From positions 1 to 64,000 of the forward strand of contig QZKS01000052.1 in assembly GCA_003599865.1 (NCBI GenBank): a stretch of DNA of 64,000 bases, given 5' to 3'. Position 1 is the first letter of the stretch. Every line of letters starts with the position of its first letter. The DNA is from Desulfobacteraceae bacterium (GTDB taxonomy: Bacteria; Desulfobacterota; Desulfobacteria; Desulfobacterales; SURF-7). Of this stretch, positions 2,500-54,216 are shown one piece after another. The notes below the pieces were generated by a model that was not told the origin of the DNA, searched no databases, and saw only the letters and a program-made list of their open reading frames with translations. Position numbers and translations under genes: made by a program.

Positions 2500-4008
2500 A
2501 TGAAAGTTCAGCGGATTCCAAAGGGAACCATCCGACTTTTGATTCTACTATTGAGCGGTTTTTGCGTAGCTCAAATACTGTCAACCGTTCACCTCTATTT
2601 TTCCAATACCGCCTTTCACGACAAGCTGATGGCAGTCCATCATGCCGGATACCTGGCCGTACCCAATATGCAGGTTGCACCGCATCTAAATGACTGGACA
2701 TCCGCTTTTAACGGCGGCCTTTTCTTCTCCCTTACGTCCGGTCTTGCGCTGACCATTTTTTCAATTTTTGCCGCCTGGGTCCGGTTCAACCTGTCCTGGG
2801 AAAAAACAGTTCCGATCATTCTGAACCTGATATGGGTTGCCGGCCTGATCATGGTCAACCGCAATGGTTTTTCTTCCCTGATTACGGCTTATCTGATCTT
2901 TATTCCGTGTACGATCCTTCCATTTTTCAGAAAGCTGTTTTCATGCCTGTCTTCATGCAATGATCAACTCCCGGCAAAATTTTCTCTGTTTTTTCATGTC
3001 CTGTTGTTTGTTCTGTTTTCCATTGGCTGTGCTTCACAGATGAAGGTGGAAAAATTTCTGGATATCCGGGATTTTCTGTTTCTCGGAAACCCGACCGGAG
3101 AAGCAATCAATGCCTTTTATTATGACAACAGTCTGTATTCAGCTAACTACTTTAAATCCTTTTCGCAAAAACTGATTAAAACCTGTGACCTGGAATCCCT
3201 CCGGGATAAGCAACTGAAGCAGCAGATACGCCGCATTCTCAACTATCATGATTATTTGTCTTTAGAATCCTTTGCTCAAGCGGATCTGAAAACAACAGTC
3301 CAGGATGACATGATCTGTCTGTCTCATCAAAAAAAAATCATACTGACTGTTTCTGTCCAGGATTTCTTGCGTTCGACAAAGCAGTATATCCATCTGTTTG
3401 AGTCCAAAACCGACAGACATGCCATTTTTCGGATCATAACAATGGCCTCCCTTTTATTTGTCGGAGCGATTCTTCTGTACTCCATAACCTTTCTGCTCCC
3501 ATTTCTGCTGACAAAAAACGTTCTCAATCCGGCCTGGTCAGTAGTGACCGCTGCACTGATATGTATTTTGATTCTTGTTGTGTTGCTTGGCGTGAAAGGA
3601 AGTAATAAAATCAATGACCTCAAACATGTTGCCGCTGCCCTGAAATCTGAAGACTCCATCACGCGAATCAAAGCCCTTCGCTATATTGTTGATCAAACAA
3701 TGGATATCACTCTCTTTCCCGAATCTGAAACCCTGGCTATTAACGGAACAATACCCGAACGATACTGGATCGCAAAAGCTCTTTCCCGGAGCCGCAACCC
3801 AGACAGCCGGAATACCCTGTTGCGGCTGTTGGAGGATAACCATTTCAATGTTGTCTGCATGGCTTTGCATTCCATGGGGAAACAGGGCAGGAAAACAGAT
3901 ATCCCGATCATCCTTGAAAAAATTCAATCTTCGAATAACTGGTATGTCCAGTGGTATGCCTATAAGGCACTGAGGAATCTCGGGTGGTATCAAAAAATAA
4001 TGAACTGA
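2500..4008 (+). CDS. Multi-pass membrane protein with C-terminal HEAT-like repeats
   Basis: The family is not recognised. There is an N-terminal hydrophobic helix (about 10-28), three or four further membrane helices up to about residue 175, a hydrophilic loop of about 130 residues, and two strong helices at about 310-375 (LLFVGAILLYSITFLLPFLL and the ALICILILVVLLGVKG stretch). The last 130 residues carry two or three helical repeats of PBS-lyase/HEAT type ('YWIAKALSRSRNPDSRNTLL', 'VVCMALHSMGKQG', 'YVQWYAYKALRNLGW'), a scaffold for protein contacts on one side of the membrane. It sits 15 bases after the chemoreceptor and overlaps the protease gene downstream, which suggests one transcription unit. 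Function unknown. Confidence 0.7.
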   Translation: MKVQRIPKGTIRLLILLLSGFCVAQILSTVHLYFSNTAFHDKLMAVHHAGYLAVPNMQVAPHLNDWTSAFNGGLFFSLTSGLALTIFSIFAAWVRFNLSWEKTVPIILNLIWVAGLIMVNRNGFSSLITAYLIFIPCTILPFFRKLFSCLSSCNDQLPAKFSLFFHVLLFVLFSIGCASQMKVEKFLDIRDFLFLGNPTGEAINAFYYDNSLYSANYFKSFSQKLIKTCDLESLRDKQLKQQIRRILNYHDYLSLESFAQADLKTTVQDDMICLSHQKKIILTVSVQDFLRSTKQYIHLFESKTDRHAIFRIITMASLLFVGAILLYSITFLLPFLLTKNVLNPAWSVVTAALICILILVVLLGVKGSNKINDLKHVAAALKSEDSITRIKALRYIVDQTMDITLFPESETLAINGTIPERYWIAKALSRSRNPDSRNTLLRLLEDNHFNVVCMALHSMGKQGRKTDIPIILEKIQSSNNWYVQWYAYKALRNLGWYQKIMN

Positions 4009-34573: not shown

Positions 34574-34624
34574 GTCTATTTCTTTGCCCGGACATCACCT
34601 TGACCTCGAAGGTACATATTCCAT

Positions 34625-34800
34625 CTTTCTGTTATCCGGATAGGTCTCCTGGCTCGTGGATTCATTGATAAAATCGCTCCTTCCCAGCCGAATCAACAGC
34701 CAGTGGTCTTTCTTGCGTTTATCATCTCCACTTACAGTGGCGGGCCCGCAGCGGTTTCTCACCGCTTTCCCTTTTATGCCGTAACGGCACCCGGATAAAA
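34625..34800 (-). ncRNA. Cobalamin (B12) riboswitch
   Basis: Read on the minus strand, all core elements appear in order: GGGTGCC near the 5' end, GGGAAAGCGGTGAGAAACCGC, GCGGGCCCGCCACTGTAAG, GACCACTGGC, GGCTGGGAAGGAGCGAT and the B12 box GAGCCAGGAGACC, followed by TATCCGG pairing back to the 5' CCGGGT side. It should bind adenosylcobalamin or a related corrinoid and control the terminator downstream. No gene follows: the IS5 element begins directly behind the terminator. The B12-dependent mutase gene icmF lies upstream on the same strand, not downstream, so it is not the regulated gene. Confidence 0.95.
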
Positions 34801-34812
34801 ATCAATTTGTTG

Positions 34813-50682: not shown

Positions 50683-51654
50683 TTACAGGGAGGTGCGTAA
50701 CTTCAGCTCGACAGGATGCGGCTTCAGATAGACCTGCCGGCTCAGATAAGGCTGTTCATATTTTCGAATATAGTGGTTGATCAGTGTAATCGGAACCAGA
50801 AGCGGGGCATTGCCGATTCGATATTCATCGATAATTTCAAGCAGCTCTTTTTTTTCATCCCCGGTCAACTGCTTTTTGAAATATCCCATCATATGCTGAA
50901 GAACATTCACCTGTTTTTTTGTTGTTGTTTTGAGTCTTAAGGCCTCCAGCAGCAATTCTTCATATCGCTGATACAATGCATCCGGTTCTGTCTTTTTTCC
51001 TTCGGCAACCAGTTTGCCCATGGCCCGATAGTGCACCGGACTGTGGGAAAGAATCAACAGTTTATGATGCGTATGAAAATCCACAAGCGTCCCCATCCGT
51101 TTGTCCTGCTTCAGGGTATCCCGCCAGCGTTTCAGGGTAAAAATACTTTCAATAAAATTCTCGCGCAATCCGGAGTCATTCAACCGGCCTTCCTCTTCAG
51201 CCGGAATCAGCGGGAAATGCTCAACAAACGCCCGGGCAAACAGACCAACCCCGTTTTTCAGAAAGCCGCCTTTATCATTGTAAACCTTGACCTTGAACAG
51301 GCCGCTGCTGGGGGAATCTTTTTTAAAAATAAACCCGCAAAGATTTTCCCCGGCAAGTTCCCTGACCCGCGACTTTGCCCAATGCTGCATCTGTTCGGTC
51401 AGATCTTTTTGGGTCTTGGAGGTAACCAGACGCGGATGATCCGGATCTCCCGTCAGCCTGAGGGTCTCCCGGGGAATTCCCAGTCCGCATTCCACCTCAG
51501 GGCAGACCGGCACATATTCCAGATACGCCCCCAGGGTGTCGGTAAGAAAGCGATCCCGGCAATGCCCGCCGTTCCAGCGAACACTTTCACCGGCCAGACA
51601 GGCACTGATCCCGATCCGGATAGGACCGGACTCGGCATAAATTTTGTTTGTCAT
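50683..51654 (-). CDS. DUF523-DUF1722 protein (YbgA-like)
   Basis: The N-terminal DUF523 domain (1-150) has 'RIGISACLAGESVRWNGGHCRD', 'YVPVCPEVECGLGIPRETLRL' and 'GFIFKKDSPSSGLFKVKVY'. The DUF1722 domain follows at about 190-310 ('LVDFHTHHKLLILSHSPVHYRAMGKLVAEGKK'). Stand-alone DUF523 enzymes include iron-sulfur thiouracil desulfidases that use a third Cys in a SPSCG motif; here that position is Ser (SPSSG), so the same chemistry may not apply. Function is unproved. Confidence 0.85.
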   Translation of the reverse strand: MTNKIYAESGPIRIGISACLAGESVRWNGGHCRDRFLTDTLGAYLEYVPVCPEVECGLGIPRETLRLTGDPDHPRLVTSKTQKDLTEQMQHWAKSRVRELAGENLCGFIFKKDSPSSGLFKVKVYNDKGGFLKNGVGLFARAFVEHFPLIPAEEEGRLNDSGLRENFIESIFTLKRWRDTLKQDKRMGTLVDFHTHHKLLILSHSPVHYRAMGKLVAEGKKTEPDALYQRYEELLLEALRLKTTTKKQVNVLQHMMGYFKKQLTGDEKKELLEIIDEYRIGNAPLLVPITLINHYIRKYEQPYLSRQVYLKPHPVELKLRTSL

Positions 51655-52240: not shown

Positions 52241-53845
52241 TTATTCCGGCAAAAAACAGAAAGGATCTTTATCTTGAAAAACATTCAGGCCATAGCTGTA
52301 AATAACCGCCAGGCATCCCCTGCAGACAGGATTCAGGCTGCAATCCCGACAGGCTTGACTGCCTCTCCGATATTTTCCGGCAAGATCGGAATGATAAATA
52401 TCAAACAGGGATTGCCGTCGGATATTGCCGATCAGTGAAGGAAACTTGCGGCAGGCATGAACCTCGCCGTCCGGAAGCAGCGAAACAAAATTAAATGCCG
52501 CGCCGCATCCATACCCGGTGCATCCGCCGAAAAAAGCCGCCTTTTTTTCTTGCCGGATAATATTGATCAGGTTGTCCTTCAGACCCAGTATCGGATTGGT
52601 CTCTGCTGCTTTTTCATATTCATGCAAAAAGGAGATGAATGTTTCCTTTTCCGGCATTAGAAGATCTTTGCCCTCCCCGATGGTGGAAAGCCGGTTGAAC
52701 GTGAAAAAATCCGCGCGATCCCGGAGCAGTTCCCCCAGAGGAAGAACCTGATCCAGATTATCCCGGGTCAGGGTCAGCATGACCATGCTGTAAATATCCA
52801 TCTTCCTGAGCTGATCCAGAAAGGCAAGAGACCGGATGAAATGGCCTGTTCCCCGGATATAATCATTGTGTTCTGCCAGTCCTTCCAGACTGATCTGAAA
52901 AAAAAGGGGCTTTGTTTTCTCAAAAATTTTTTCCATCTGCGCTTCGGGGGTGGGGTTTCCCAGTATGGCCACGCCAAAACCCCTGTCCGACGCATCCTGA
53001 TACAGCCTGAGAAAATGCGGATATAAAAGCGGATTCCCTCCGGTAAAGGTGACCTGCCCTCTCACATTCATCCCGCGACAAAACCCGTAAAAATCATCCA
53101 GAACGGCAAGAGCCGCGTCATAGGTCATGGGATGTCTCTCGCTGCGGTCATAACAGTGCCTGCAGTGAAGATCGCATGTCTGGGTGATGTGCCACTGGAG
53201 TGTGAAAATATCGGCGGATTGGAATGGTTCCAGTGTTTCCGAAGGTCGGGACGGAATAGAAATATCCCTTTGAATCCGGGAGGGGGGCGATAAAAGGATG
53301 CCCTGCACAACCGCTCTTTTCAATGCGCTTTGAATGGCCTTGACGGATGTCCGGCCCATTTTCGAAGCTTCCCGCGGGTCAATCTCCTCAACGACAATCT
53401 TCAAGGCCAGGAGATCGATATCCAGCGCTTCACGGATATGAAACTCCCTGGTTATCGGATGACGCCAGATCATGACATGGACCGGGGAGGCCTCCGGCTG
53501 CGGGCAGGGATCTTTGTTGAAATCACCTGCGAAAATGGCTGCCAAATGCTTCCAGGAAACCGGAATCAGGGAGAGGGTCGGATTGACCGTTATCGTTTCA
53601 GGCGTTTTCCCGGAATCGGCATCCTCCGTCCGTATCTGGTTCACTTTCCATTCCAGGCGGGCAAGATCATCAATGTATTCCGGCAACGGAATGGATGCTT
53701 TCAGAGACGCCAGTGCATCCGGGAACATCCGCGGCTCCGGATGGGTATCCAATGCCGCCAGCACCCTGTCCCAGGTTTCCTTGCCAAGGATGCGGCGGCA
53801 GTTGGAAAAGACAGATTGAACCTTTTCATTACAAATACCGGTCAC
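52241..53845 (-). CDS. sbtM: Radical SAM/SPASM maturase of the selenobiotic peptide (SbtM-like)
   Basis: A 534-residue radical SAM enzyme that should modify the peptide encoded just upstream. After an N-terminal region of 210 residues comes the CX3CX2C cluster site 'CDLHCRHC' (Cys224, 228, 231), then 'GQVTFTGGNPLLYPHF'. A SPASM domain has eight further cysteines (442, 447, 465, 499, 502, 508, 511, 530) that would hold two auxiliary Fe-S clusters. The N-terminal extension and neighbouring precursor match the SbtM thio(seleno)oxazole-maturase family as I remember it; a profile search was not possible. The start is GTG 53845. The 80-base gap after sbtA contains the last SECIS hairpin. Confidence 0.88.
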   Translation of the reverse strand: MTGICNEKVQSVFSNCRRILGKETWDRVLAALDTHPEPRMFPDALASLKASIPLPEYIDDLARLEWKVNQIRTEDADSGKTPETITVNPTLSLIPVSWKHLAAIFAGDFNKDPCPQPEASPVHVMIWRHPITREFHIREALDIDLLALKIVVEEIDPREASKMGRTSVKAIQSALKRAVVQGILLSPPSRIQRDISIPSRPSETLEPFQSADIFTLQWHITQTCDLHCRHCYDRSERHPMTYDAALAVLDDFYGFCRGMNVRGQVTFTGGNPLLYPHFLRLYQDASDRGFGVAILGNPTPEAQMEKIFEKTKPLFFQISLEGLAEHNDYIRGTGHFIRSLAFLDQLRKMDIYSMVMLTLTRDNLDQVLPLGELLRDRADFFTFNRLSTIGEGKDLLMPEKETFISFLHEYEKAAETNPILGLKDNLINIIRQEKKAAFFGGCTGYGCGAAFNFVSLLPDGEVHACRKFPSLIGNIRRQSLFDIYHSDLAGKYRRGSQACRDCSLNPVCRGCLAVIYSYGLNVFQDKDPFCFLPE

Positions 53846-53901
53846 AATATCTCATCTAGAACTGTAAATGTCCGTTACCCTTTTGTGGGAGGCTGAACCC
53901 T

Positions 53902-53934
53902 ACACGCAAACTGCGTGTGAATGGACTAGCTTCA
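53902..53934 (-). promoter_or_regulatory. SECIS-like hairpin for UGA codon 74 of sbtA
   Basis: UGA 53934-53932 is followed by AGC TAG and, 13 bases after the UGA, by ACACGCA-GTT-TGCGTGT (53918-53902): a 7-bp perfect stem with GU in the loop. GGCTGAA around the UGA can also pair with TTCAGCC (53898-53892) as an outer stem. The stop codon lies between UGA and hairpin. Confidence 0.72.
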
Positions 53935-54153
53935 GCCGCTTTTGGCGGGTTTCTCGTCTTTCACATCCTCGTCGGTGCCACCGGCACCGGAAGAGCCGCC
54001 GCTTCAACCGCTTTGGGAGCTACCTGCTCCGTTTTTTTCGCCGCTTCAGGCGCTCTTACCGGACGAGCAGCCGTCCAGAACGAACGTAGATCCTGTGATC
54101 AGGCCGGCAACACAGAAACCTGCAAGGATCTTTTTCAAGTCTTTGACTTCCAT
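53926..54153 (-). CDS. sbtA: Selenocysteine-containing selenobiotic-type RiPP precursor (SbtA-like)
   Basis: A 75-residue peptide read from ATG 54153 (ribosome site GGAG) to TAG 53926, with in-frame UGA at codons 36, 50 and 74, each followed by AGC (Ser). Translating UGA as selenocysteine gives an N-terminal hydrophobic leader 'MEVKDLKKILAGFCVAGLI' with 'DGCSSGKSA', then a Gly/Ser-rich core with three small-residue-U-S motifs (SAUSG, SGUSG, SGUS at the end). Leader, Gly-Cys-Ser-Ser segment and repeated U/C-S motifs match the 'selenobiotic' RiPP precursors paired with SbtM radical SAM enzymes. Each UGA has its own hairpin (see SECIS entries). Without Sec insertion only a 35-residue leader would be made. 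Known members use Cys or Sec at these positions. Product chemistry is inferred. Confidence 0.88.
53974..54006 (-). promoter_or_regulatory. SECIS-like hairpin for UGA codon 50 of sbtA
   Basis: UGA 54006-54004, then 15 bases, then GGTGCC-GGT-GGCACC (53988-53974): a 6-bp perfect stem with loop GGU. Spacing and GGU position equal those of the first hairpin. Confidence 0.75.
54016..54048 (-). promoter_or_regulatory. SECIS-like hairpin for UGA codon 36 of sbtA
   Basis: UGA 54048-54046, then 15 bases, then GGAGC-AGGTA-GCTCC (54030-54016): a 5-bp perfect stem with GGU in the loop, the form bound by bacterial SelB. Confidence 0.75.
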
Positions 54154-54216
54154 AATGATCTCCTATCAGGTTAGAAGGTGAGGTGCTGCTTTTCCCCCCT
54201 GGGCAGGGGCTCATGA

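Follow-up and report, generated by a model that had tools for sequence, protein, structure and literature searches.

A candidate three-selenocysteine precursor peptide and its radical SAM maturase in a Desulfobacteraceae genome, with a leader resembling an export signal

Can a short reading frame that is interrupted by three in-frame UGA codons be a gene, and if so, what would become of its product? The question is raised by contig QZKS01000052.1 of a Desulfobacteraceae bacterium (assembly GCA_003599865.1), of which positions 1 to 64,000 were analyzed here and are referred to as the window. An original prediction, made from the DNA letters, placed in this window a hidden precursor gene of a ribosomally synthesized and post-translationally modified peptide (RiPP) and, next to it, the gene of a radical S-adenosylmethionine (SAM)/SPASM maturase; we refer to the two genes as sbtA and sbtM. 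The reading that we consider quite probable is that the three UGAs of sbtA are decoded as selenocysteine and oxidized to selenooxazole rings, and that the peptide probably leaves the cytoplasm and becomes lipid-anchored. SbtA/SbtM thio(seleno)oxazole RiPPs (TIGR04081/TIGR04082) are described in a review (PMC11002830) which covers Lewis et al. (2021, Biochemistry 60:3347), and PMC13188914 gives TIGR04081 the name "Selenobacteriocin"; here and below, statements credited to papers with PMC numbers refer to the available sections of these papers. The family itself is thus known, and what is added here is the hairpin evidence for each UGA, the signal-peptide and lipobox layout of the leaders, an RRE-like domain (RiPP recognition element) in the maturase, and a possible double reading of the UGAs as selenocysteine or cysteine. 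The RRE-like domain, the leaders as export signals and the double reading are not stated in the literature searched, outside which lie the two founding papers (Lewis et al. 2021; Haft and Basu 2011).

The sbtA/sbtM gene pair

The sbtA frame occupies positions 53926-54153 of the minus strand, on which all features of the pair lie, and comprises 75 codons and a TAG stop. A ribosome-binding site (AGGAG, 54160-54164) stands 6 bases upstream of the ATG at 54153, in accordance with the good ribosome site that had been claimed. With UGA read as U, the encoded peptide is MEVKDLKKILAGFCVAGLITGSTFVLDGCSSGKSAUSGEKNGAGSSQSGUSGGSSGAGGTDEDVKDEKPAKSGUS. The UGAs are found exactly where they had been predicted, at codon 36 (54046-54048, context AUS), codon 50 (54004-54006, GUS) and codon 74 (53932-53934, GUS) of a Gly/Ser-rich core, each in a motif of a small residue, U and Ser. 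The leader was matched by the SbtA model TIGR04081 with 47 bits (cut-off 30.5, E 1.5e-12), which bears out the proposed identity of the precursor; a Pfam scan of the peptide gave no match. Starting 80 bases past the sbtA stop, sbtM (52241-53845, GTG start) encodes a protein of 534 residues, the length and type foreseen, that scored 720.4 bits against TIGR04082 (cut-off 350, E 1.3e-216). Genome-wide, a single SbtA and a single SbtM exceed the cut-offs.

That gene callers would miss the peptide also proved right: the list of open reading frames (ORFs) in the ordinary code (70 residues minimum) lacks it, and holds instead two plus-strand frames, 53868-54089 and 53917-54174, that lie over sbtA. 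Both proteins being above their curated cut-offs, with UGAs in small-residue motifs and sbtA directly upstream of sbtM, the pair is, as judged by sequence, a genuine three-UGA addition to the known thio(seleno)oxazole family and no new kind of system.

Hairpins downstream of the UGA codons

The selenocysteine machinery that such a gene presupposes, and whose genes the original prediction had named, is encoded in the genome: selA, selD, two selB genes and two selenocysteine tRNA (tRNA-Sec)-like genes over the cut-off, a canonical tRNA-Sec included. In a sample of 395 genomes of the phylum, SbtM exceeded its cut-off in 39, and tRNA-Sec was found over the cut-off in 37 of these 39 (the misses being G194 and G047).

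Each of the three UGAs is followed by a hairpin resembling a selenocysteine insertion sequence (SECIS), at 54016-54030 for UGA36 (loop AGGUA, -7.0 kcal/mol), at 53973-53989 for UGA50 (loop GGU, -11.3 kcal/mol) and at 53902-53918 for UGA74 (loop GUU, -8.0 kcal/mol). The register is fixed, the loops beginning 21-22 bases past each UGA. Although the third hairpin lies 3' of the TAG stop and hence outside the coding sequence, the nearest relative (locus L008) retains its core, CACGCAGUYUGCGUG. An internal control is provided by the SelD gene of the same genome (L006, contig C17), which has an in-frame UGA of its own with a GGU-loop hairpin at 21-23 bases. No SECIS family was matched in the window by Rfam at gathering thresholds.

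From 40 of 48 SbtM loci, 45 precursors were collected with a leader profile seeded with eight leaders. No precursor was obtained from L011, L012, L020, L023, L024, L049, L050 and L054; L020 is truncated by a contig edge, with nothing but the end of a UGA frame visible. A hairpin was scored when the 45 bases following a UGA held a stem of 4 or more base pairs with GU in the loop, the G being 15-28 bases past the UGA, at -5 kcal/mol or lower. By this rule 77 of the 110 family UGA sites, the window's three included, are followed by a GU-loop hairpin, compared to 2.5% in dinucleotide shuffles (20 rounds, maximum 5.5%), 1 of 26 core Cys codons and 3.2% of 1382 other-codon sites, which overlap one another. 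Since the rule was fixed after the three window sites were known, the independent test consists of the other 107 sites, 74 of which pass. At many of the 33 misses a hairpin stands in this position with a different loop (e.g. GGC, GGA or CGGGA), and at some there is none, as at two of the three sites of L009; the last two UGAs of L053 and L053b, frames that run past their chosen ends, are likewise without GU-loop hairpins. Six frames end in UGA. In five of them the stop has no hairpin, even though two of these stops lie only 12 bases past a selenocysteine codon; in the sixth (L008) the stop is 6 bases past the start of the last selenocysteine UGA and a single hairpin is common to both. From these data the three window UGAs, each with its SECIS-like hairpin, are predicted to be read as selenocysteine, whose insertion at these codons we infer. 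The hairpin count over the 110 sites also suggests a rule by which hidden genes of this kind may be found.

Conservation of the UGA codons

The number of UGAs per precursor is three in 20 of the 45, as in the window, two in 15, one in four, four in four and none in two; the reference member in PMC13188914 is apparently listed with two. The residue following U is Gly at 64 of the 110 sites and Ser at 27, so that the window's sbtA, in which every U precedes Ser, belongs to the minority in this respect. The replacement of U by Cys that had been expected is clearer in the wider family, with Cys in a like motif in L019, L032, L028, L029 and L033b and throughout in L047 and L042b; in the closest relatives a single case is seen, at position 50 of the database protein P0003. 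The Cys-only SbtA-like precursors at L047 and L042, with repeated SCGG/SGCGG, are encoded near SbtM in genomes that have tRNA-Sec.

In L008, whose SbtM is 64-65% identical to that of the window, UGA36 and UGA74 are kept. The C-terminus KPAKSGUS is conserved there as well, with 19, 12 and 30 differences by codon position over 72 codons. Two database relatives known as proteins only, P0002 and P0003 (65-71% identical), stop at KPAKSG, where U74 would be, and two further ones stop at GKSA, directly before U36; such ends fit gene callers truncating at UGA, as had been foreseen. P0002 has G at position 50. A PF27804 label, precomputed on four database relatives, was not reproduced when two of these were scanned with Pfam. 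Among the closest relatives, only the last selenocysteine may be constant.

The maturase

A structure model of SbtM was obtained with a predicted local distance difference test score (pLDDT) of 91.7. The radical SAM motif C224-x3-C228-x2-C231 (53153-53176) is invariant in an alignment of 46 of the 48 SbtM sequences (L038 and L052 were omitted), as are the SPASM-side cysteines C442, C447, C465, C499, C502, C508, C511 and C530. The SPASM domain itself, residues 447-530 (52256-52507), was matched by TIGR04085. RRE domains resemble PqqD-type domains, with three strands followed by three helices. In a structure comparison of SbtM residues 80-202 (53240-53608), the six best PDB chains were all RiPP proteins, namely TbtB (twice), MibB and three lasso B1 leader-binding proteins, and SbtM is therefore predicted to carry an RRE-like leader-binding domain.

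The radical SAM/SPASM RiPP maturases SkfB, SuiB and ChlB are 17-18% identical to SbtM across the aligned part, and their chemistry differs, as they form thioether and C-C links. The activity of an SbtM homologue has been described in vitro with both Cys and Sec substrates (PMC11002830), and by analogy with it we infer that the window SbtM would form a ring at each U, with the loss of four hydrogens.

The leader and the fate of the peptide

Residues 1-29 of SbtA (54067-54153) have the layout of a signal peptide of the general secretory (Sec) pathway, with a Lys-rich start, a hydrophobic core and a lipobox-like L26-D-G-C29 (54067-54078), in which Cys is encoded by TGC rather than UGA. In the close group this element reads LDGC (window) or LSGC (L008 and P0002). 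All 44 complete leaders of the family (that of L014 is incomplete) start with ten residues that include at least one Lys or Arg, and have a hydrophobic core; this uniformity is partly built in, because the leaders were picked by a profile, and of 43 non-overlapping ORFs of the window with at least 150 residues, 12 have the same layout. In 14 leaders, the window's included, the hydrophobic core ends at a Cys at positions 27-29 that is preceded by Gly and has L, V, M, A or G at -3; 17 leaders had been scored automatically as having a lipobox, and three (L025, L028 and L047), with the Cys elsewhere, were removed. Throughout these 14 the lipobox Cys is encoded by TGC or TGT and never by UGA, and none of nine mid-core cysteines stands in a lipobox context. 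The other 30 complete leaders display A-x-A-like ends (by a permissive rule), e.g. AHA, just ahead of the first Sec or Cys core.

On a quickly built tree of SbtM, leaders of the two kinds were clustered, with 4 changes versus 11.7 in shuffles, loci with both kinds being counted as lipobox and 8 of the 48 rows being unlabelled. At three loci (L033, L035 and L057) one SbtM is accompanied by two precursors, one with a lipobox and the other with an A-x-A-like end. LspA and Lgt are encoded in the genome. Thus, SbtA leaders look like lipoprotein and ordinary Sec signal peptides, and the product is likely exported from the cytoplasm. A Sec-type leader with a lipobox suggests an exported, lipid-anchored peptide like the copper-binding bufferins, and points to the membrane or periplasm, besides the medium, as the place of the product.

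The scheme that we favor would run as follows. Each UGA, with a SECIS-like hairpin of its own and with SelA, SelB, SelD and tRNA-Sec encoded in the genome, would direct the insertion of selenocysteine; the RRE-like domain of SbtM would bind the leader while the radical SAM core makes the rings; and the leader would then act as a signal peptide for Sec export and signal peptidase II, yielding a membrane-bound peptide. Its weakest step, put forward tentatively, is the role of the peptide, of which the likeliest would be to hold soft metal ions, e.g. Cu(I), on the outside of the cytoplasm. This is argued by analogy with the thiooxazole bufferins, in which Cys is converted to thiooxazoles, which protect against copper and have Sec signal peptides, ca. 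16% of the Buf2 group being of the lipoprotein type (PMC12452194). Bufferins and oxazolins resemble SbtA, as predicted here, in having a short precursor with a Sec or lipoprotein signal and Cys turned into a five-membered ring. They differ in their maturase, a multinuclear non-heme iron-dependent oxidative enzyme (MNIO, DUF692) acting with sulfur, whereas SbtA would depend on an unrelated radical SAM maturase and selenium, and its metal role is drawn from the analogy. No MNIO maturase was found by a Pfam scan among SbtM and five neighboring proteins. A lipidated MNIO product is known (PMC12636315), and the DAG-RiPPs of that paper, RiPP-lipoprotein hybrids, have a modified core behind a lipobox leader, the layout predicted for SbtA; those shown are, however, MNIO products, and the terms Sbt, selen- and radical are absent from its available text. 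Binding of Cu(I) is described for bulbicupramide, tentatively a thiooxazole peptide (PMC12538549). If the scheme holds, exported metal ligands of the oxazole type would have arisen independently in a radical SAM, selenium-using family.

The following observations weigh against this scheme. UGA50 is replaced in L008 by the Ser codon TCA; position 36 is P in P0002 and G in P0003, so that UGA36 is apparently absent from both, as far as proteins alone can tell; minimum-energy z-scores over 50 bases are good for the third site only; and the Asp at -2 of the window's LDGC departs from the lipobox consensus. The expected conservation of the UGAs thus stood for codons 36 and 74 in L008, and failed for codon 50 there and, seemingly, for codon 36 in the two database relatives.

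The last of these observations also bears on the strongest alternative, in which the leader serves only for recognition in the cytoplasm by the RRE-like domain of SbtM, its hydrophobic stretch being for docking, and the core leaves the cell or works in some other way. The RRE-like domain would agree with this, as would the HlyD/MacA-like adaptor gene, identified by eye, that neighbors SbtM in three of the close relatives (L016-L018). We nevertheless regard it as rather doubtful; against it stand the Cys at positions 27-29 with a preceding Gly in 14 leaders, the A-x-A-like ends that precede the first Sec or Cys core in the others, and the loci at which one SbtM is paired with precursors of both endings.

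A different fate, that of a secreted antibiotic or signal (a "selenobacteriocin") in place of a metal-handling envelope peptide, is suggested by the name used in PMC13188914, and the same adaptor gene could be taken in its favor. The name is a label and no test, though; a lipid anchor would hold the peptide on its producer, and no immunity gene was recognized by eye in the 25 largest clusters of ORFs neighboring the 48 SbtM loci (flanks of ca. 5 kb at 18 loci and 1.5 kb at 29). This proposal is accordingly judged unlikely.

A second recoding system

The genome encodes, at C38:23737-23828, a second tRNA-Sec-like tRNA with a UCA anticodon, U73 and an encoded CCA end; read by eye, it adopts an 8/4 form with a bulged A in a 4-bp T-stem. 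The covariance model pairs U73 with the A preceding G1 instead, and the ends given by ARAGORN were adopted because the encoded CCA then remains. A second selB gene starts 27 bases past this tRNA (C38:23856), its product (SelB2) being 29% identical to SelB1; the tRNA/selB2 pair sits beside sulfur-transport and Se/S-carrier-like genes. Among the top tRNA-Sec matches a simple pattern was readable at 27 of 29 loci, with G73 in all 27, a base required for tRNA-Sec function (PMC5330540, PMC7609411). A selC* tRNA-Cys, on the other hand, is marked by U73, by an anticodon that is either GCA or UCA and by a 4-bp T-stem with a bulged A, to which some groups add a selB* downstream (PMC7609411). By these sequence marks, of which it carries the UCA anticodon, U73, the bulged-A T-stem and selB2 downstream, the C38 pair is of the selC*/selB* Cys-recoding type. 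It differs from the Desulfobacterales UCA form described in the same paper, which has A1:U72 and cysS*, in having G1:C72, which fits the encoded UCCA end; no cysS* was found in a scan of ten proteins of C38, a set that does not comprise two large ORFs of this stretch. The genome is a draft with a contamination estimate of its own of 2.75%, and the base composition of C38 lies inside the spread of window pieces, so that contamination is not indicated.

The presence of this pair means that the SbtA UGAs might be read as Cys besides selenocysteine. In its extreme form, with selC*/selB* reading them mainly as Cys, the product would be a thiooxazole peptide. The likeness of the C38 tRNA and selB2 to the selC* system and the acceptance of both Cys and Sec substrates by SbtM (PMC11002830) speak for such a product, which we think improbable given that canonical tRNA-Sec, SelB1 and SelA are also encoded and that U73 tRNAs were seen in 4 of the 39 SbtM genomes, among five second matches over 56 bits that were examined. 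By this count the family seems independent of U73 tRNAs. No link between selC*/selB* and SbtA was found in the literature searched. A natural test is offered by a genome that encodes this pair and sbtA together, with one UGA gene, two amino acids and one maturase. In its widest form the favored scheme would make these peptides selenium lipoprotein RiPPs whose leader is both RRE ligand and lipoprotein signal, and which form, on the outer side, a selenium metallophore convergent with the MNIO bufferins, the UGAs being read as Sec or Cys depending on selenium supply; taken as a whole, this combination appears unlikely.

That the UGAs are real stops, leaving a 35-residue leader peptide or a decayed gene, is hardly credible: the ordinary code does stop the frame and two database relatives are recorded as ending just before U36, but the fixed-register hairpins at all three UGAs, the U74 hairpin core preserved in L008 despite being non-coding, and the KPAKSGUS C-terminus with its pattern of codon differences argue against it.

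Further tRNA-Sec-like tRNAs were observed in other SbtM genomes. One at L091 (G029, 2795-2883, minus strand) has a GCA anticodon and U73 and lies directly 5' of a SelB gene. Those at L089 and L090 (G376 and G357) combine a UCA anticodon and U73 with a T-stem that lacks the bulge, and the long ORFs in the 4.5 kb analyzed include no SelB. The one at L092 (G088, 3247-3341, minus strand) is a second tRNA-Sec in which G73 is present but the acceptor stem is mismatched; it may be a duplicate that has decayed.

Neighboring genes and other features

None of the 25 largest neighbor clusters, inspected by eye, was accepted as a partner of SbtA/SbtM. The clusters other than SbtM that most loci share looked, by their place, like antisense or overlapping frames of SbtM, and smaller ones were found mainly in close relatives: an ABC-F-like ATPase at six loci, a small Cys-rich protein at five related loci (L016, L017, L018, L050 and L051) and the adaptor at three. 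In the window, a PNPOx-like gene 3' of sbtM (below the Pfam cut-off) and uvsE 5' of sbtA were kept out of the pair. Among plasmids, 73 records gave a match, none of them covering 80% of SbtM. HdrA, encoded beside selB2, resembled a selenoprotein when frames were read through UGA but was rejected as one, its two UGAs at the extreme C-terminus being followed by a weak fold at most and taken as stops.

Elsewhere in the window, a cobalamin riboswitch (34622-34809, minus strand, 106.7 bits) is the sole Rfam match, and the minus-strand gene at 50683-51654 encodes a fusion of a DUF523-type (2-thiouracil desulfurase) domain and a DUF1722 domain.

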